Under the pieces are notes generated by a model that saw nothing but the letters and a program-made list of their open reading frames with translations, searched no databases and was not told the origin of the DNA. 31,619 bases of DNA from a virus: IMG/VR virus record IMGVR_UViG_3300033145_001214, positions 1-31,619 of that record; one strand, 5' to 3'. The position numbers and the translations under genes are program-made. Of this stretch, positions 2,278 through 17,307 are shown piece after piece; positions within the stretch are counted from its first letter, which is position 1, and each line of letters begins with the position of its first letter.

Positions 2278-2547
2278 TTATTTTATATATTTGTCTTTGG
2301 GAATTGGTTTTTTAAGATTATTTAGATATTTCACAACTTCTTTTCTTGTATCAAATCTAATTGTTGTTTTATGACAATCACAATAATAACATTGCATTAT
2401 TCGGTATGGTTTCCATTTCGATTGTTTTTTAAGACAAAAAATACTTCTTAAAAAATTAATTCCTAAATATTGAATAATATAATAATTTTTAATCTTTGCA
2501 GTATTATCATCTCTCCAATATTTTTTAATTATTCTATATTTTTTCAT
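2278..2547 (-). CDS. Hypothetical basic protein, 89 residues
   Basis: A small lysine-rich protein with a CYYCDCH cysteine/histidine cluster near residues 53-59 that might bind metal. The start overlaps the stop of the HExxH protein gene by 4 nt (2544-2547), suggesting translational coupling at the end of the ubiquitin-like cassette. Function unknown. Confidence 0.6.
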   Translation of the reverse strand: MKKYRIIKKYWRDDNTAKIKNYYIIQYLGINFLRSIFCLKKQSKWKPYRIMQCYYCDCHKTTIRFDTRKEVVKYLNNLKKPIPKDKYIK

Positions 2548-2852
2548 TTATTGTTAAAATTAAGTTTATTTTCCTTAATAACTAGTAATAAATCTTCGGC
2601 TAATCCGCTAACTACTTTTTCTTCTTGACCTTGTGCAAATTCTTTTCTCAAACTACTACTATCGATAATTGCATGTAAAAGTTCATGTAAAAATGATATT
2701 TCTAATTGATCTCTTTTTTGTGTTGGATCTAAAATAATCTTTTGTTTAGCATGATAACAAACTCCATATCTATTATCATCTCTGAGAGATTCTTTATCAT
2801 ATTCTATAGTATATATTTTAGTTTTAATTTTAATTTCTTTTGGTATTTTCAT
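2544..2852 (-). CDS. Small HExxH zinc metallopeptidase-like protein
   Basis: A 102-residue protein with FLHELLHAII (about residues 53-62), the HExxH zinc motif of gluzincin-like peptidases, and a downstream EE (about 77-78) that could supply the third ligand. Compact HExxH proteins resembling ImmA/IrrE or SprT domains are common in phages. The gene starts 2 nt after the stop of the E1-like gene, so it probably belongs to the same transcript as the Ubl conjugation genes. It could process conjugates or act independently; its substrate is not visible. Confidence 0.7.
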   Translation of the reverse strand: MKIPKEIKIKTKIYTIEYDKESLRDDNRYGVCYHAKQKIILDPTQKRDQLEISFLHELLHAIIDSSSLRKEFAQGQEEKVVSGLAEDLLLVIKENKLNFNNK

Positions 2853-2854
2853 TA

Positions 2855-3529
2855 TTATTTTGTAGTTAAAAATTCTAAATTCTTTAAATCAAAGATTATT
2901 TCTTTAGGATATTCTTCACCTTTGATAAATTTCTTACATTGATTTCCTATTAGTCCTGCTATAATAAAGCAGTTATAAAATATAGAGCGAGCAGTACATG
3001 ATAATTTATCTGCATCTTTTGAAGAATAGAAATATTCATCATAAAATTCTTGGTCTAGAATATTATTAGGGTCTACAGAATATATCCTTAAAAGCTCCCC
3101 ACCCATTCTTGCATCAATAAATAATTTACATTTACTATCTTTAATAATTTCCCAAATCTTTTTTCTTTCATCCATACTATCAACTGTACAAATCATTATA
3201 TCTTTAATTATATTTGCATTTTCAAATTTATGTGTAAAGGCAAGTAACTCTATATCTTGATTATATTCATCAAGAGTTTTAATTAGTGCAGTTGTTTTGT
3301 ATTCATCTATTTCAGATTCTCTAAATAATTGATTTGGAAGATTGTGTTCTTCTATCTTATCATTATCCCATATAGTAATATGTGGAAAACCTAATTTAGT
3401 CAATACTAATGCAGTTGGACTTCCAATACCTCCAGCTCCTATTATGCCCACCTTCTTATCTATTTCGCTTGGAGCTATTATATCAAGTTGTCGCCAGTAT
3501 CTTTGGTCTTTAAATTCTTCAATTCCCAT
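2855..3529 (-). CDS. ThiF/E1-like adenylating enzyme
   Basis: A 224-residue single adenylation domain. It opens with RYWRQLDII (residues 10-18), typical of ThiF/MoeB/E1 starts, followed by the ATP-binding loop GAGGIGS (31-37), the WDNDKIEEHNLPNQ segment (54-67) with Asp57, Asn63 and Gln67, Lys78, and CTVDSMDER (113-121). A Cys177 in KLSCTAR is a candidate thioester cysteine. Known relatives adenylate the C-terminal Gly of a ubiquitin-like or MoaD/ThiS-like protein. Ubl, E2-like and JAMM genes lie upstream, so its natural substrate is probably the Ubl at 5371-5625. The first 52 nt overlap the 3' end of the JAMM gene in another frame, suggesting coupled translation. Confidence 0.9.
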   Translation of the reverse strand: MGIEEFKDQRYWRQLDIIAPSEIDKKVGIIGAGGIGSPTALVLTKLGFPHITIWDNDKIEEHNLPNQLFRESEIDEYKTTALIKTLDEYNQDIELLAFTHKFENANIIKDIMICTVDSMDERKKIWEIIKDSKCKLFIDARMGGELLRIYSVDPNNILDQEFYDEYFYSSKDADKLSCTARSIFYNCFIIAGLIGNQCKKFIKGEEYPKEIIFDLKNLEFLTTK

Positions 3530-4056
3530 AGTTTTCTTCTTTTAGATATTTGAACATTTTCCTCTATCTCTTTTTTAATCTTATTTCTTAGTATTGTATT
3601 TTCAGGTGAAGTTATCTCTATATCAATATCTTTGATTGTATTTCTAAATGGATTAAACACATCTACTCTTGCCTCCATTTCCATTTTGCGATTAATAACT
3701 AAACTTATTAAAAAATCTGATGTATCACCAAAGTTTTCAATAGTTTGTTCATCTGTGGATGAAAAAAATACTTCCATATCTGAATGAGAATGCCACCATA
3801 ATGATATACCATCTATTGTTTTATTTTTCTTATATTCTTTTTCCAAAAATAATGCTATTGCTTTTTTATCTAAGTCGGTACTAGTATGTCCAGCTTTTTG
3901 TGGAAAAATAAAAACATCATCTACAACTATATTATTCTTATCTTGCTTATTGTAACTTATTTTACCAAGACCAGAGATTTCTCCAGAACAAAGTGTCGCA
4001 TAATATTTTAATTTTAGATAGTTATTGAATGGTATTAATAGTTTTAATTTTTTCAT
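3478..4056 (-). CDS. JAMM/JAB metallopeptidase (deubiquitinase-like)
   Basis: A 192-residue protein with a full JAMM signature: Glu26 in SGEISG, then His89-x-His91-x7-Ser99-x2-Asp102 in WWHSHSDMEVFFSSTD. These residues coordinate zinc and the catalytic water in RPN11/AMSH-type isopeptidases and bacterial JAB proteins. The Ubl of this operon has one residue (Lys84) after its GG. The JAMM enzyme is therefore a good candidate both for trimming the Ubl precursor and for reversing conjugation. The C-terminus is Lys-rich and overlaps the E1-like start by 52 nt. It begins 11 nt after the E2-like stop. Confidence 0.88.
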   Translation of the reverse strand: MKKLKLLIPFNNYLKLKYYATLCSGEISGLGKISYNKQDKNNIVVDDVFIFPQKAGHTSTDLDKKAIALFLEKEYKKNKTIDGISLWWHSHSDMEVFFSSTDEQTIENFGDTSDFLISLVINRKMEMEARVDVFNPFRNTIKDIDIEITSPENTILRNKIKKEIEENVQISKRRKLWELKNLKTKDTGDNLI

Positions 4057-4067
4057 ATTTTAAGTAG

Positions 4068-5354
4068 TTACATATTGCCAGCACTTATACTGCCAGTGGT
4101 AATAACACTATTAGCTTCTTGTGATGGGGCTGATTTGCCTATAAAATTATATATATTAGTATATGCATCTTCATCTCTATATGATGATAGAAATTTTAAA
4201 ATAAGATTAGTCAATCCAACTAAATCAAGTTTTGCTAATAATTTAGGAATTGATGTAGATATATTCCCCCAACATGGATATCCTTCTGAACTAATATGTG
4301 GATGCTGATAGCTTTCTAGTTTTTTCTGATTAAATATTTTTACATCTCCATCTAATAAATTGTAAACAATCTCATATCTTCCTATATCAAAGACATCAAT
4401 ATCTTTAATATCTATTTTGATATTGTTTGTAAAAACATATATCAAATTATTTCTAACTTTAATATCTTTAATTCTCTTATCTTTTTTCATTACTTCAAAA
4501 TTTCTGATTGAATCTTTTTTTGTATCATTATTCTGATAGAGTTTAGATAAAAGTTTATAACTTCTTTTAGCTTGCTCTAATTGTTTTTGCGAATCAGATA
4601 TTTGTTTCATAATATCATGAATTTTTACCTTATTCTTGCTTATATTGTGATCTATTGCTTTTTCAAATATTAATGAGAAATTTTTCTCTCTGCTATTACT
4701 TATTATTTTTAATGCTCTATTTAATATTTTCATAAGCAATTCAACTCCTTCCCCGTTATATATTGATAAAATTGAAAGATGTATATGGGTAATATTTGAT
4801 CTATCTATAGTAGCTACTTTAATTCTGTTTCCATTTTTTTCTTTGGTATAAATCGGAATACCTTTAATATTACTTCCTACTAATATTAATTGTAATTTGT
4901 CTAAATTCTTTAGTGATACTCTACAAATTTCTATTTGTTCTCCTATTGTATCTATATCAACAGGTTCAATATTCTCTGTTTGTATTGATGGTAGTAACGG
5001 TGATACATCTATTAAATATGATTTTTGATTATTAAATCTATCAGTATTTAACATTTGCAATGCTTTCTCAAAGAATACTAAATCATAATTAAATTTATAT
5101 TTATTTTCATTATATCTACAACATTCTTTAGATGCTTCATATTCAGCTACTGTTTCTGTTGGTAATTTAGAATCTTTTATTGATAACTTAAAGTTAGAAT
5201 GTATGTTATTGTATTTTGAAGATTCTGGAACCGAAACTGGTGGAGACATCATATAACTATACACATCACTTACAACACTATCTGTCATAGTAGTAGCTGT
5301 AGTATCAGTAGTTCTAGAATTATCACGTGAACCCCATGGAAGTGTAGCATACAT
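4068..5354 (-). CDS. Large E2-like ubiquitin-conjugating protein
   Basis: A 428-residue protein. Near the C-terminus, residues 351-364 read HPHISSEGYPCWGN, matching the HPxI...G.xC active-site region of prokaryotic E2/UBC-fold proteins, with Cys361 as the candidate thioester cysteine. The ~350 residues before it are not recognised: a Ser/Thr-rich start, a mixed alpha/beta part and a Lys/Gln-rich, probably coiled-coil segment around 235-275. Canonical E2s are ~150 residues, so the extra region may select substrates or carry a second fold. The Ser/Gly-rich tail ends in SAGNM. It lies between the Ubl and JAMM genes, which supports the E2 assignment. The call rests on one motif plus context. Confidence 0.72.
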   Translation of the reverse strand: MYATLPWGSRDNSRTTDTTATTMTDSVVSDVYSYMMSPPVSVPESSKYNNIHSNFKLSIKDSKLPTETVAEYEASKECCRYNENKYKFNYDLVFFEKALQMLNTDRFNNQKSYLIDVSPLLPSIQTENIEPVDIDTIGEQIEICRVSLKNLDKLQLILVGSNIKGIPIYTKEKNGNRIKVATIDRSNITHIHLSILSIYNGEGVELLMKILNRALKIISNSREKNFSLIFEKAIDHNISKNKVKIHDIMKQISDSQKQLEQAKRSYKLLSKLYQNNDTKKDSIRNFEVMKKDKRIKDIKVRNNLIYVFTNNIKIDIKDIDVFDIGRYEIVYNLLDGDVKIFNQKKLESYQHPHISSEGYPCWGNISTSIPKLLAKLDLVGLTNLILKFLSSYRDEDAYTNIYNFIGKSAPSQEANSVITTGSISAGNM

Positions 5355-5370
5355 AAATTCACATTAATTA

Positions 5371-5625
5371 TTATTTACCACCTTCAATTTTACCAGCCGA
5401 ACTAATGATTAAAGATTCTCCATCTTCAACTTCCATATTTTTTTCAAGAATTTCACCATTAACTCTAACTTCTGTACTTCGACCAAAATCCATCTCACCA
5501 GCTTTTAATGCTGCTTTTACATCATCACCCTTTTTTAATACTACTTCCTTAGCTACTCCACCAAGAGGGAGGAGGGTTACTTTAATAATATTTTCTGATG
5601 CTGTTCTTCTTCTTGTTCTTACCAT
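5371..5625 (-). CDS. Ubiquitin-like beta-grasp protein with C-terminal GG-K
   Basis: An 84-residue protein. After a basic N-terminus (RTRRR), the pattern KVTLLPLGG...EVVLKKGDDVKAAL...EVRVNGEIL...VEDGESLIIS is that of MoaD/ThiS/ubiquitin-type beta-grasp proteins. It ends KIEGGK: a diglycine at 82-83 followed by a single Lys84. Removing that Lys would expose a conjugation-competent GG, as JAMM or other peptidases do for ubiquitin precursors. An AAAGGTCGAA element lies 34 nt upstream of the ATG. A sulfur-carrier role is the main alternative, but neighbouring E2-like and JAMM genes favour protein conjugation. Confidence 0.88.
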   Translation of the reverse strand: MVRTRRRTASENIIKVTLLPLGGVAKEVVLKKGDDVKAALKAGEMDFGRSTEVRVNGEILEKNMEVEDGESLIISSAGKIEGGK

Positions 5626-5833: not shown

Positions 5834-6151
5834 TTATTTACACATTACATCAAAATTCTGTCCATAGGTATTATCAGGATTTCCTGTAAACTCTAAAATT
5901 CCATCTGGGCAAATCTCTTTAGCTCTATCTAAATTGGTTTTCTTTTTTTTAGATTTTTCAATTGATGCTTCTTTCTGTCCTTGTGATAACATTTCACATG
6001 CTTCATTATCTCCATTTGCACATTTTACTTTTGTTCTAGCAGAATTTAAAGAAACTAAAACAATGGTTGACAAAATTCCGATAACAGCAACAACGACTAA
6101 TAATTCGATTAAAGTAAATCCTTTTTGTTTTGTTGTTTTTATATTCCACAT
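5834..6151 (-). CDS. Type IV pilin/pseudopilin-like protein
   Basis: A 105-residue protein with a class III (prepilin) signal: a basic leader ending KQKG, the expected PilD-type cleavage point, then FTLIELLVVVAVIGILS with the conserved Glu five residues after the cut, and a hydrophobic helix ending SLNSARTK. The small C-terminal domain has four Cys (CANGDNEAC, EICPDG and a terminal MCK), so disulfides are likely. This N-terminus resembles pilins common in Patescibacteria. A pilin-like gene in a phage is unusual; it could have been acquired from the host. It lies downstream of a prohibitin-like gene across an inverted repeat. Confidence 0.75.
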   Translation of the reverse strand: MWNIKTTKQKGFTLIELLVVVAVIGILSTIVLVSLNSARTKVKCANGDNEACEMLSQGQKEASIEKSKKKKTNLDRAKEICPDGILEFTGNPDNTYGQNFDVMCK

Positions 6152-6218: not shown

Positions 6219-7037
6219 TTATTTTAATCCGATAAATGGTGTAGCATTTCCCCAATAAGTTGGAACATTCCCATTCCATTTTTCTATCCACCGGAGCTCA
6301 ACTATCTGTGCATTCTCTCTAAGAGCCATAGCCTCAATTCTAATAGCTTCAGCTTTACCTTTAGCATCAGCAACTCTTTGTTTTGCTTCTACTTCAATTC
6401 TTTCTAAATCTCTATCAGCCTTTAATTTCAATTGTTCTGCAGTAACTTTTGCTTCAATAGCTTCATTAAACGCTTCGGAGAAATCAAAATCAACAATATT
6501 AAATTCATCTACATATATATGATGAACCAATAGTCTTTCTCTAATATTGTATTTAATATCTTCTTTAACTGCTTCACGTTTTGTAATCAATTCTTCTGCT
6601 GTATATAATGCAGTAGTTGCCTTAACTACTTCTTGAACTGATGGATCAATAATTCTTTCTTTATATAATTTGCCAACATCTTGCCAAATTTTATTTACTG
6701 AATCTGGAACTAAATGGTAGTTAATAGCAACAACAGAAGTAGCTATCTGTAAATCTTTAGATGCTGCAGATACTGGAACTTCAGCTTTTTGAATCTTAAC
6801 ATCCATTATCTGTACTTTTTGTACAAAAGGAATTTTAAAATACAATCCTTCGTTAAGTACTTTATCTTGAACTGCTCCAAACTGCAATAAGATTCCTCTC
6901 TGTCCTGCACCAACTGTTCCCCAAGCACCAAAGAAAAGAATTAAAGTAACCAAACCAATAACAATATGTTTGATTAATTTTCCTATATTAAAATCATCAT
7001 CTTCGGTATTCCAATTTTCACTTGAAAAATATTTCAT
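6219..7037 (-). CDS. Prohibitin/SPFH (band 7) membrane protein
   Basis: A 272-residue protein. A short acidic N-terminus is followed by one transmembrane helix (about residues 26-45, IVIGLVTLILFFGAW) and then the classic prohibitin opening VGAGQRGILLQFGAV...GLYFKIPF. A long Ala/Glu/Lys coiled coil (about 180-245, KVTAEQLKLKADRDLE) and the C-terminal RWIEKWNGNVP...PFIGL are also prohibitin/HflK-like. Such proteins oligomerise on membranes and modulate proteases or lipid domains; several large phages carry one. An AAAGGTCGAA element lies 29 nt upstream and a terminator-like hairpin about 60 nt further. Being first before the Ubl cassette, it may share its transcript. Confidence 0.88.
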   Translation of the reverse strand: MKYFSSENWNTEDDDFNIGKLIKHIVIGLVTLILFFGAWGTVGAGQRGILLQFGAVQDKVLNEGLYFKIPFVQKVQIMDVKIQKAEVPVSAASKDLQIATSVVAINYHLVPDSVNKIWQDVGKLYKERIIDPSVQEVVKATTALYTAEELITKREAVKEDIKYNIRERLLVHHIYVDEFNIVDFDFSEAFNEAIEAKVTAEQLKLKADRDLERIEVEAKQRVADAKGKAEAIRIEAMALRENAQIVELRWIEKWNGNVPTYWGNATPFIGLK

Positions 7038-8833: not shown

Positions 8834-9502
8834 TTATAATAATGGTTGTTGTTTTAATCTTTCTAATGATATTTTATGGTAATTAGGGGAGATTTCGATT
8901 CCAATAAATCTCCTATGAAGATTTTGTGCTGCTAATGCAGTTGAACCCGAACCAGAAAATAAGTCAAGTATAATATCGTTGGGATTGCTTGATGCTAATA
9001 TCAATTTTTCTATCAATGGAACAGGTTTTTGTGCTACGTGATATCGCCCTCTAAATGGTGGCTGGTCAGCAAAGTAATCAGTATTTCTTATATCGTGAAA
9101 TGGATTAAAAATAAACTCATCCGAATATGTTTTCCATAAAATCAATTCAGTAAAATTCTCCCATCGTCTTGTGAGTTTCATCATTCTGGCGAATGGTTTT
9201 GTCCAGAATAAGATTTGTCTATGTTCAAAAATCCCAAGCATTTCTTTTAAGAATTTAGGCCACCAAAAAACATATATTTGTCCATCGGGTTTGATAATGC
9301 GGTCGCATTCTTTTAGCCATTTTTGATGGAACTTGATATCAAAATAAGTTTTCTCTTTTACTTTATCAAATATTTTCCCAGCGTTATATGGAGGGTCAGT
9401 GATAATCAAATCTATACTATTTGCTGGTATTTTCTTTAAAAACTTTAAAGAATTATCGCAGAAAACTTTATTTGTAATATTTTTTATTTTATATATTTTC
9501 AT
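8834..9502 (-). CDS. DNA N4/N6 methyltransferase (beta class)
   Basis: 222 residues with DLIITDPPYNAGK (about 30-42) before LFSGSGSTALAAQNLHRRFIGIE (SAM-binding, about 187-209) and a C-terminal ..SLERLKQQPLL. The N-terminus, MKIYKIKNITNKVFC, resembles that of the fragment at 11453-11557. Its ATG overlaps the stop of an orphan methyltransferase tail (9499-9540) as ATGA, which suggests it once followed a complete methyltransferase gene directly. Confidence 0.9.
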   Translation of the reverse strand: MKIYKIKNITNKVFCDNSLKFLKKIPANSIDLIITDPPYNAGKIFDKVKEKTYFDIKFHQKWLKECDRIIKPDGQIYVFWWPKFLKEMLGIFEHRQILFWTKPFARMMKLTRRWENFTELILWKTYSDEFIFNPFHDIRNTDYFADQPPFRGRYHVAQKPVPLIEKLILASSNPNDIILDLFSGSGSTALAAQNLHRRFIGIEISPNYHKISLERLKQQPLL

Positions 9503-10155: not shown

Positions 10156-10950
10156 TTATAATAATGGATGTTGTTTTAAACGTTGTTTTGCGATTTTACA
10201 ATATTCTTCAGACATCTCAATTCCAATAAAATTTCGTTTAAGATTCTGTGCTGCTAATGCAGTTGTTCCACTTCCAAGACAATTATCCAAAACCAAATCT
10301 TTTTCATTTGTATATGTTTTTATTAGGTATTCAAAAAGAGCAATGGGTTTTTGAGTGGGATGTAGTTTATCTTTATCTCTACTAAATTCAATTAAATTAC
10401 TTGGATATCTTTTTCCATTATTAATAGTTGTATGTCCAGAAATATCTTCTCTTCCTCCTTTTCCACCACGGACAACTGCCGAATTATCTCCTTGTTTTCC
10501 AGATTTACAAACATAAGGTTTTCCTTTAGTAAATTGTGGATTATAATTCATATTAGAACCATTTTTTACAAACGAAGTTGCACCATTCCCAAAAACACAA
10601 ATATCTTCTGTTATTTTCAATGGTTGAAATTTTGAATTTAAAAAATTAGTTCCATTATCTTTTTTCCAAATCCAATTATATTTATATAATTTTAAATTAG
10701 AACAAATTAATAAACTTGTAAATGGTTGCTGTGCTGTTAAAACAATAGCCCCATTATCTTTAATCATTCTTTCATATTGCTTCCATAGTTTTTTTATATC
10801 AATACGATTATCCCAATTAGATGGAGTTGTTCCATAGGGGAGATCTGAAATAATTGCATCTATTGATTTATTTGGAATAAATTTCATTAATTCAAGACAG
10901 TCACCTTGATGTATTTCATTTATTTTTAAGTATCCATTTTCCAATATCAT
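10156..10950 (-). CDS. DNA N4/N6 methyltransferase (beta class)
   Basis: 264 residues with a DAIISDLPYGTTPSNWD catalytic motif (about residues 31-47; DLPY instead of DPPY, as in several phage adenine methyltransferases) and LDNCLGSGTTALAAQNLKRNFIGIE (about 223-247). The C-terminus is KIAKQRLKQHPLL. It is flanked on both sides by HNH genes, and beyond those by a methyltransferase N-terminal fragment (11453-11557) and an orphan tail (9499-9540). Either it carries replacement ends, or a whole HNH-methyltransferase-HNH cassette replaced the middle of a resident gene. The start overlaps the HNH stop as ATGA. Confidence 0.9.
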   Translation of the reverse strand: MILENGYLKINEIHQGDCLELMKFIPNKSIDAIISDLPYGTTPSNWDNRIDIKKLWKQYERMIKDNGAIVLTAQQPFTSLLICSNLKLYKYNWIWKKDNGTNFLNSKFQPLKITEDICVFGNGATSFVKNGSNMNYNPQFTKGKPYVCKSGKQGDNSAVVRGGKGGREDISGHTTINNGKRYPSNLIEFSRDKDKLHPTQKPIALFEYLIKTYTNEKDLVLDNCLGSGTTALAAQNLKRNFIGIEMSEEYCKIAKQRLKQHPLL

Positions 10951-12220: not shown

Positions 12221-12858
12221 TTATAATAATATTTTTTGTCTTAATCTTTGTTTAGATATATTGCAAAATTCTAAATTCTTTTAAGTTCTTGACTTGCTAC
12301 TGCCGTTGTTCCACTGCCAAGAAAAGGGTCACATACTATATCATTTTCATTGGAACTTATTTTTACAAATATTTTACATAATTCTAATGGTTTGCTTGTT
12401 GGGTGAAACCTCATATTATTCTTCCAGTTACTTTGTGGCTTAGAATATCTAAATACATCCACATTTTCACTACCCACAAAACTTGGTTGAAATGTTGGTT
12501 TGCCAAATTTAATATAAAAAATTGGATCATATGTCCACAAAAACATTTTTTTTGTTGGTTTGGCAAGGTTGGGATGGTGCCAAATTAACATTCTATGTGG
12601 TTTAAATATTTTAAATCCTAATGGAATATATTTCTGACCAAAAAATATATATGCTGAACTATTTTCTTTCATTTTGGGCTTTAACATTTTCCACCATTTC
12701 TTTGTAAAACTGTCAATATCAACATCGTCCCATTTTTGAGTAGATTTTAGTACTCCATATGGAGGGTCAGTCAGTAATAAATCAATACTTTTATTTGGTA
12801 TCTTAGGTATTATATTAAAACAATCCCCATGGGTGACTTTATTAAGAAATTTTTTCAT
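12221..12858 (-). pseudogene. DNA methyltransferase with frameshifted/deleted C-terminus
   Basis: The N-terminal 195 residues are a normal beta-class methyltransferase: DLLLTDPPYGVL (about 27-38) and CDPFLGSGTTAVASQELKR (about 174-192). The frame stops at 12271 just where relatives continue NFIGIE. The +1 frame then reads EFCNISKQRLRQKILL to TAA at 12221, a typical tail. About 8-9 residues (FIGIE region) plus the frame are missing, so this is a small deletion, perhaps between short GAATTT repeats. That region contacts SAM, so the enzyme is probably inactive unless the truncated form still folds. Confidence 0.8.
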
Positions 12859-15678: not shown

Positions 15679-17307
15679 TTATATTCCTAATTGCTCTGGT
15701 GATTCTTCTTTAATTCTTTTTTCAGCCAGTTTTACATATTCAGAATTTATTTCAATTCCAATAAAACTACCAGATGAGCAATACAATCTTTGAGCAATAG
15801 CTGTTGTTCCACCACCAAAAAAAGGATCTAAAACAATTCCACCCTCATATTCTATGTTTTTACATTTACATTTATTTTCTCCAATAACCTTATTAGTATT
15901 CCACCATCTTGGATTATGATTTGGATGTGATTTCCCCCATTTTATTTTAGACCTTTCAATTCCCTCTGGCTTCCCTTGCTCTGTATATATAGGAGTTCCT
16001 TCTTTTTTACTTTTTGTAGTTACAATATGTCCACATTTTTTACAGATTTTATGTGGTAGGCAAGTTTTTATAGGTCTAGATAATAATGCTACTGGAAATA
16101 AAGCAAAATGTTTTATTGAACTCGGTCTAGTATTCACTTGCCAAACATCACAAATATTTTTACCTTGGATATTACAAATAGATGAATTAATATCTTTGTT
16201 TGTTTTCTGTGTTGGCATAAAATTTCTATTACCTAATTCTTTATTATTTCCACCTCTACCACATCTTCTTACATCATGCTCTGGTCTTGCTTGGCTTGTA
16301 TTCCCTGGAACTAGTCCCCCCCGTGGTATTCTTGCATTTCGAGCACGTGGACTTCCATAGTTTTCTGATTCAATACCATATCCATCAAATTTACCTTTAT
16401 AGTTTTTATCTTTTCCAAATTGTTCTCTAAAAACCTTTGGTGGTTGCATTGGTTTATCAACTTTATCTTCAAACATTTTCCCTTGAGTTTGTACTACACC
16501 AAGATTTACCCCCCTTTGGTATCTTTCTAATGATTGAGTTTGATGTGGAATACGAACAGAATCTAGATTAAAATAATACTTCTTGTTTTTTGTAAAGAAA
16601 AAAAGATATTCATATGCTGTATTAAATCTATCATTTACAGAAGTTGGCATCACATTTCCAATAGTAGAATTTGTTTTATGTATCATTACCTGCTTTGACC
16701 AGATAATCTTATTACGAAGAATCCACCCATCATCAATCATTGCAATAGCTAATCTTTCTGGAATCATACATAAGCACTTTGATGGATATTTTCCTGTTCC
16801 TCTTTTTGTGTGCCTATGTTCTGAAACTCCATATTCATCTTCTTGTTGGTTTTGAAGATTCCCATAATTTTTTCCACTACCACTTTTTGTCCAGTATGAA
16901 TCTGCAATATTTATCCAAAAACTTCCACTTTTCTTTAATACTCTTTTAATATTTCTAGCCACATCGACCATTTTATTAATATAATCTTGTGGTGTTTCTT
17001 CGAGTCCAACCTGATTTTTTTTAATGAACTTTGAATATATTATTGCTTTATAACTTATTATTTCACCATTCAAATTTTGTATTTCTCTGATTTTAGAGAA
17101 GTAGTCTTTGTTTTTCTGTTCTTTTATCCATTGTTGGGCTTCTTTTTTGGTGGGGAAACTTTTGTCATATAATGTCGAATAATCGCGAAGTCCGTAGTAA
17201 CTTGGACTCGTAATCACCGTATCAATGGTTTCATTTGGAATTTTTTTCAATTCATCAATAACATCGCCTTGTAAAATTTTGTCTTTTATGTCTTTTATTT
17301 TATACAT
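15679..17307 (-). CDS. Large DNA N4/N6 methyltransferase
   Basis: 542 residues. The catalytic motif is TVITSPSYYGLRDY (about 31-44), a TSPPYxxLRDY variant with Ser for Pro, typical of N4-cytosine/N6-adenine enzymes of this long type. Also present are GSFWINIADSYW, SKCLCMIPERLAIAMI and the SAM-binding DPFFGGGTTAIAQRL (about 492-506) plus GSFIGIEINSEYVKLAEKRI. A Cys-rich insert, CKKCGHI and CKCKN, may bind zinc. It follows the replication module and heads the methyltransferase region. The N-terminus MYKIKDIKDKI is like that of the fragment at 11453-11557. Confidence 0.9.
   Translation of the reverse strand: MYKIKDIKDKILQGDVIDELKKIPNETIDTVITSPSYYGLRDYSTLYDKSFPTKKEAQQWIKEQKNKDYFSKIREIQNLNGEIISYKAIIYSKFIKKNQVGLEETPQDYINKMVDVARNIKRVLKKSGSFWINIADSYWTKSGSGKNYGNLQNQQEDEYGVSEHRHTKRGTGKYPSKCLCMIPERLAIAMIDDGWILRNKIIWSKQVMIHKTNSTIGNVMPTSVNDRFNTAYEYLFFFTKNKKYYFNLDSVRIPHQTQSLERYQRGVNLGVVQTQGKMFEDKVDKPMQPPKVFREQFGKDKNYKGKFDGYGIESENYGSPRARNARIPRGGLVPGNTSQARPEHDVRRCGRGGNNKELGNRNFMPTQKTNKDINSSICNIQGKNICDVWQVNTRPSSIKHFALFPVALLSRPIKTCLPHKICKKCGHIVTTKSKKEGTPIYTEQGKPEGIERSKIKWGKSHPNHNPRWWNTNKVIGENKCKCKNIEYEGGIVLDPFFGGGTTAIAQRLYCSSGSFIGIEINSEYVKLAEKRIKEESPEQLGI

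Follow-up and report, generated by a model that had tools for sequence, protein, structure and literature searches.

We report that a stretch of viral DNA, IMG/VR record IMGVR_UViG_3300033145_001214 (the window: one whole linear record of 31,619 bases), carries four adjacent minus-strand genes at 2855-5625 encoding a ubiquitin-like modifier (Ubl), an E2-like protein, a JAMM metalloprotease and a ThiF/E1-like enzyme. With a probability of about 70%, we read these genes as a self-contained, virus-carried Ubl conjugation pathway in which the JAMM trims the Ubl, the E1 activates it, the E2 conjugates it and the JAMM reverses the modification, retuning host or phage proteins. The anatomy of the cassette was established by computation, through the gene order, the folds of the Ubl and of the E2 domain, the conservation of the catalytic residues, the recurrence of the cassette and an association between the Ubl tail and the JAMM. 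The features of the cassette are as follows.

5371-5625, minus strand: Ubl precursor of 84 residues with the C-terminus GG-K (open reading frame (ORF), fold model and profile).
4068-5354, minus strand: E2-like protein of 428 residues, with a low-confidence N-terminal part, a long helix and a C-terminal UBC domain (ORF and the UBC evidence below).
4140-4529, minus strand: UBC-like domain, residues 276-405 of the E2-like protein, with the HPH motif and the predicted catalytic Cys361, codon 4272-4274 (AlphaFold2 (AF2), VIA and profile).
3478-4056, minus strand: JAMM metalloprotease of 192 residues with E26, H89, H91, S99 and D102 (ORF, invariant motif and profile).
2855-3529, minus strand: E1-like activating enzyme of the ThiF superfamily, 224 residues, with the candidate catalytic Cys178, codon 2996-2998 (Pfam ThiF, homologues and E1 tree).

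The genes are tightly packed: gaps of 16 and 11 nucleotides separate the Ubl from the E2 and the E2 from the JAMM, the JAMM and E1 genes overlap by 52 nucleotides, and a small HExxH gene lies 2 nucleotides beyond the E1. The original prediction had claimed these five ORFs with this spacing, and an ORF check recovered them at exactly the same minus-strand coordinates. The residues that it had singled out were also found: the Ubl ends in GG-K (...KIEGGK), the metal and catalytic residues of the JAMM are complete, with E26 and H89-S-H91-x7-S99-x2-D102 invariant in 8 homologues, and the HPH...C361 motif of the E2-like protein is present, with its key residues invariant in 13 homologues. For the E1, the GAGGIGS loop and an invariant candidate cysteine were confirmed, the latter at position 178 and not 177.

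None of Pfam, NCBIfam, PHROGs and PADLOC matched the E2-like protein, and automated annotation misses this family because it passes no Pfam cut-off. The AF2 model showed a UBC fold at residues 275-410, with a predicted local distance difference test (pLDDT) of about 80-93 across most of residues 281-400. The site reads H351-P-H353-x4-G358-x2-C361-x-G363, in which H351, P352, H353, C361 and G363 are the invariant positions. VIA aligned the C-terminal domain with E2 enzymes (Z 6.6-8.0), beside which the RWD domain of Knl1, a related fold, ranked with a Z of 8.2. When a profile of the 13 homologous UBC cores was compared with the PDB, the best 60 sequences were all E2 enzymes; the top alignment spans the whole domain of UbcH7 and pairs HPNIDEKGQVCL with HPHissdGsiCl, which puts HPN...Cys on HPH...C361. 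The UBC fold and the HPx...Cys site place the protein in the E2 (UBC) superfamily.

The AF2 model of the Ubl is a beta-grasp (pLDDT 79), with strand and helix order in agreement. Foldseek with this model returned SUMO and Caldiarchaeum ubiquitin at E about 2e-4, VIA matched it to SAMP1 (Z 9.8), and its profile matched PF1061/SAMP2 at 4e-8 to 1e-7; the fold and the C-terminal glycine assign it to the beta-grasp ubiquitin-like proteins. Both folds on which the original prediction depended, beta-grasp and UBC, are present in the predicted structures. The JAMM profile matched CSN5, RPN11 and archaeal JAMM1, and the complete set of E and HxH-x7-S-x2-D is that of the JAMM/MPN+ proteases. The E1 has one ThiF domain (Pfam ThiF, 1.6e-23) and belongs to the E1/ThiF superfamily by its adenylation domain, its glycine-rich loop and its Cys178, which is invariant among homologues; its nearest solved relatives are E. 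coli ThiF, MccB and UBA5. Peptide adenylation of the MccB kind, considered because MccB matches the E1, was ruled out by the conserved E2 and JAMM. The family models proposed as a check gave a divided outcome: ThiF passed, Prok-JAB scored the JAMM at 0.003, below its cut-off, and neither the E2 nor the Ubl matched in Pfam.

We then analyzed the recurrence of the cassette. Viral contigs scanned with the single E2 or E1 sequence as query gave no relatives, and nothing was found by tblastn of the E2 against phage records; the relatives came instead from alignment-based scans. Scanning viral contigs with an E1 alignment retained 80 loci, most of which have a JAMM, a protein in the E2 position and a small upstream protein, all in the order of the window. 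A screen of 3,817 ORFs found the HP[HN]...CxG motif only in the gene expected as E2. Since dozens of loci repeat the order of the four genes and the motif is restricted to the E2-position gene, the cassette is more than a chance arrangement. By tblastn, we also observed neighbouring E1 and JAMM genes in Flavobacterium phage Fpv and crAss-like phages; Xanthomonas phage PhiXhv-12 gave an E1 accompanied by an HPH...C protein and by a small protein that ends in GG. Other large phages and a sparse set of bacterial genomes show the order Ubl-E2-JAMM-E1 as well.

Two groups of loci were distinguished: group A, which includes the window, with HPH...G-x2-C-x-G and minor variants, and group B, crAss-like, with H-S-H...C-x-G. 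The E1 tree splits them at 99/100 and places the window as sister to locus L010 at 98/88, in a tree with several long branches and a bootstrap that is not fully settled. A terminase search was positive in 2 of 14 group-A contigs, so the viral status of this group rests mainly on IMG/VR.

Group-A loci presented additional features. Several of their E2s (L007, L010, L012, L013, L015, L025 and L065) end in Cys-rich tails of the CxxC type, which may form zinc fingers and act in an E3-like way; the E2 of the window has no such tail. The contig of L010 carries a tandem pair of HPH...C E2-like genes in one cassette (L098, 5635-7748). Three group-A loci, L099 (16272-17879), L100 (11651-13294) and L101 (13541-15085), share a large protein resembling an AAA-type ATPase, encoded several kilobases downstream of the cassette.

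A genome scan gave eight loci from metagenome-assembled genomes, in Methylomirabilota, Deltaproteobacteria/Myxococcales and Patescibacteria bins. Two Patescibacteria cassettes lie in surroundings that look like ordinary chromosomal genes, as read from the sequence: EngA-like and pseudouridine-synthase-like genes near one (L096), groES/groEL-like genes adjoining the other (L097). Of 380 Patescibacteria genomes, 6 carry the E2, as do 12 of 284 from Myxococcota, with at most 6 matches per genome; the Myxococcota genomes G446, G007 and G456 have 4-6 matches each on separate contigs, hinting at expanded cellular versions of the system. Bacterial and viral E1s interleave in the E1 tree. Given these bacterial loci and the interleaved E1s, the module is shared and not purely viral. 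Comparative genomics, together with profile searches and fold prediction, supported the claim of a compact Ubl conjugation cassette owned by a phage as far as the cassette is concerned; it is probably phage-encoded, and relatives in Patescibacteria and Myxococcota genomes show that it is not exclusively viral. As possible roles, the original prediction had suggested the tagging of host or phage proteins, counter-defence and the labelling of virions.

In the proposed pathway, the JAMM would cleave the Ubl precursor past GG and release Lys84. The E1 would use ATP to adenylate the C-terminal glycine and then carry the Ubl on Cys178, from which it would be handed to Cys361 of the UBC-fold E2 and, within the infected cell, attached to target proteins through their amino groups. 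The JAMM would later strip the Ubl off these targets, and the pathway would serve to adjust host or phage proteins in the course of infection. Among group A and its bacterial relatives, Ubl residues past the last conserved glycine were observed at 14 of 17 loci with a JAMM and at 1 of 6 without (Fisher p 0.0086), an association that is indicative because the loci are related and the tails were hand-curated. Its simplest reading is that the JAMM matures the Ubl precursor.

These limits of the tail comparison, in which two of the JAMM-less loci are near-identical, weigh against the conjugation pathway, together with several other observations. The E-values of the E2 profile are modest (best 0.0024), the Asn of the canonical HPN is replaced by His in the window E2, and the N-terminal part of this protein has no assigned fold. 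Foldseek with the whole E2 model gave no significant match, a null result that was resolved by the second look with VIA and the UBC-only profile. Neighbour clustering gave no fifth conserved gene and no recurrent target or E3 gene beside the cassette. Because the E-values are modest, the case for the E2 rests on profile, fold, motif and context combined.

The crAss-like phages (Steigviridae) and Flavobacterium phage Fpv share with the window the gene order and homologous E1 and JAMM proteins. Their block also encodes a protein of about 430 residues with Y-x-H-x-H...C-x-G and a small protein with a conserved SG. It differs from group A by its separate E1 clade (99/100), by its HSH motif with longer spacing and by the weak profile similarity of its E2-like and Ubl-like proteins: hhalign of the group-B and group-A Ubl sets gave a probability of 14%, the group-B small-protein profile matched no Ubl in the PDB and the group-B E2-like proteins matched no E2 there. 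We infer the group-B E2 and Ubl assignments from position, the HxH...CxG motif, the invariant SG and the E1/JAMM partners. Nearly all group-B small proteins continue well past SG, most of them with long extensions. In cr106_1 (L009, 3408-4611), the small protein ends two residues past SG, an HNH endonuclease gene follows, interrupting at the predicted JAMM cleavage point, and the C-terminal extension is a separate ORF. The block genes are annotated as 'thiamine biosynthesis' or hypothetical in crAss-like phages, where they sit among primase, uracil-DNA glycosylase, exonuclease and ribonucleotide reductase genes. CrAss-like phages are abundant in the human gut; should the relation hold, one conserved part of their genomes would gain a testable function.

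With related kits in other large phages and, more loosely, in crAss-like phages, bacterial viruses probably tag proteins during infection with a ubiquitin-style system of their own. A bolder proposal, which we put forward tentatively and consider doubtful, is that crAss-like and other large phages have long carried, as a nearly core component of their genome-replication block, a ubiquitin pathway adapted to phage use. This pathway would rely on separate E2 families, some of them with fused Cys-rich and possibly E3-like tails, and would modify host or phage replication proteins in the course of infection.

The main biological rival has the same chemistry as the favoured pathway. As phage-borne defence, a Bil-like conjugation system would shield the infected host or prophage from competing phages without aiding the replication of its carrier. 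The gene order equal to that of Bil, the patchy and sparse distribution in bacterial chromosomes and the interleaving of viral and bacterial E1s are consistent with this role. We recognised no defence gene next to the cassette of the window, and the related crAss-like block occupies the replication setting described above in lineages not known as defence islands, which makes defence unlikely. This replication-module position favours a phage cassette serving the phage's own infection cycle.

The main chemical rival is a sulfur carrier, in which a Ubl of the ThiS/MoaD/TtuB kind would receive a thiocarboxylate from the E1 for tRNA or nucleotide thiolation or for a cofactor, and the E2-like protein would play an accessory part. 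The Ubl resembles TtuB and MoaD besides SUMO, the best whole-protein family matches of the E1 include NCBIfam ThiF/MoeB, yet far below their cut-offs, and 17 tRNAs lie within the window. However, the cassette has a UBC-fold E2 with an invariant HPH...Cys, its E1 sequence contains no rhodanese domain and no CxxC pair, and neighbour clustering revealed no recurrent sulfurtransferase or thiolation enzyme beside the cassette. We consequently hold this role to be distinctly improbable. A conjugation-free part in virion structure or assembly is highly improbable, since the lambdoid TAPI/TAPK clusters that resemble the cassette in pairing a phage Ubl-domain protein with an adjoining JAB protease (PMC1779556) lie in tail genes and lack E1 and E2, whereas the window cassette has no tail or structural genes around it and conserves the catalytic residues of both enzymes.

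The cassette lies in a record that is probably a fragment and has no CheckV estimate. Phage-type replication genes (Prim-Pol/DnaB helicase and DnaD-like loader) are present along with the tRNAs and many methylase/HNH genes; no structural genes were seen in the window, a caveat on the label of phage-like genome. Promoter and terminator scans performed no better than shuffles. Five related DNA methyltransferase-like genes on the minus strand (1138-1869, 8834-9502, 10156-10950, 12271-12858 and 15679-17307) are accompanied by numerous HNH-type genes in this 31.6-kb fragment. The genes near the cassette are the following.

2544-2852, minus strand: small HExxH putative metallopeptidase, directly downstream of the E1 (ORF; phrog_1233, 2.9e-18).
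5834-6151, minus strand: prepilin-like protein with an N-methylation motif, directly upstream of the cassette (Pfam N_methyl, 9.7e-10).
6219-7037, minus strand: Band-7/SPFH protein near the cassette (Pfam, 5.4e-33; phrog_200).

The HExxH protein had been linked to the cassette by its proximity to the E1; the position is correct, but the tie is not supported, as the protein falls in a separate phage family (phrog_1233) and no HExxH-type gene recurs beside the E1 in the relatives. The prepilin-like protein matched 37 of 59 Patescibacteria genomes versus 3 of 58 Myxococcota genomes, and its N-terminus resembles Patescibacteria pilins (at most 74% identity over 38 N-terminal residues), which suggests a host among the Patescibacteria.

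We finally compared the cassette with known systems. No paper describing a complete phage cassette was found in the open literature, supplements, preprints and most subscription papers being outside the scope; the words ThiF, ubiquitin and JAB are absent from the main text of a crAss-like survey (PMC7886860). The parts of the window cassette match those of type 6 operons (6a-6e), among which types 6a-6c fuse the E2 to the E1, and the type 6d E2 is without the usual His before the Cys and has one after it (Iyer 2006). Type 6d was equated with PRTRC in this analysis; the window differs, as H351 and H353 precede C361 and PRTRC_ThiF reaches 42 bits where its cut-off is 145. In type II CBASS, Cap2 is a fused E1-E2 protein beside a cGAS-like enzyme. 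The E1 and E2 of the window are separate genes, no cGAS-like neighbour was seen, and the PADLOC E1-E2 models match by their E1 part only.

Bil operons encode a Ubl, an E2, a JAB/JAMM protease and an E1, and their protease is reported to expose the C-terminal glycine of the Ubl; BilA contains two Ubl domains, the site of BilB is C-E-H-H, and BilD combines an inactive and an active adenylation domain with a Cys domain (PMC11354881). The likeness to Bil drawn by the original prediction holds for the four gene types and their order, and does not extend to identity: the window Ubl has one beta-grasp domain in 84 residues, its E2 site is of the HPx type, HPH...C with the conserved His residues before the Cys, in contrast to C-E-H-H, and its E1 is a single ThiF domain of 224 residues, unlike the multi-domain BilD. 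Bacterial ubiquitin-like conjugation is known mainly as an anti-phage defence. A dedicated phage pathway, if true, would put the same chemistry on the attacking side.

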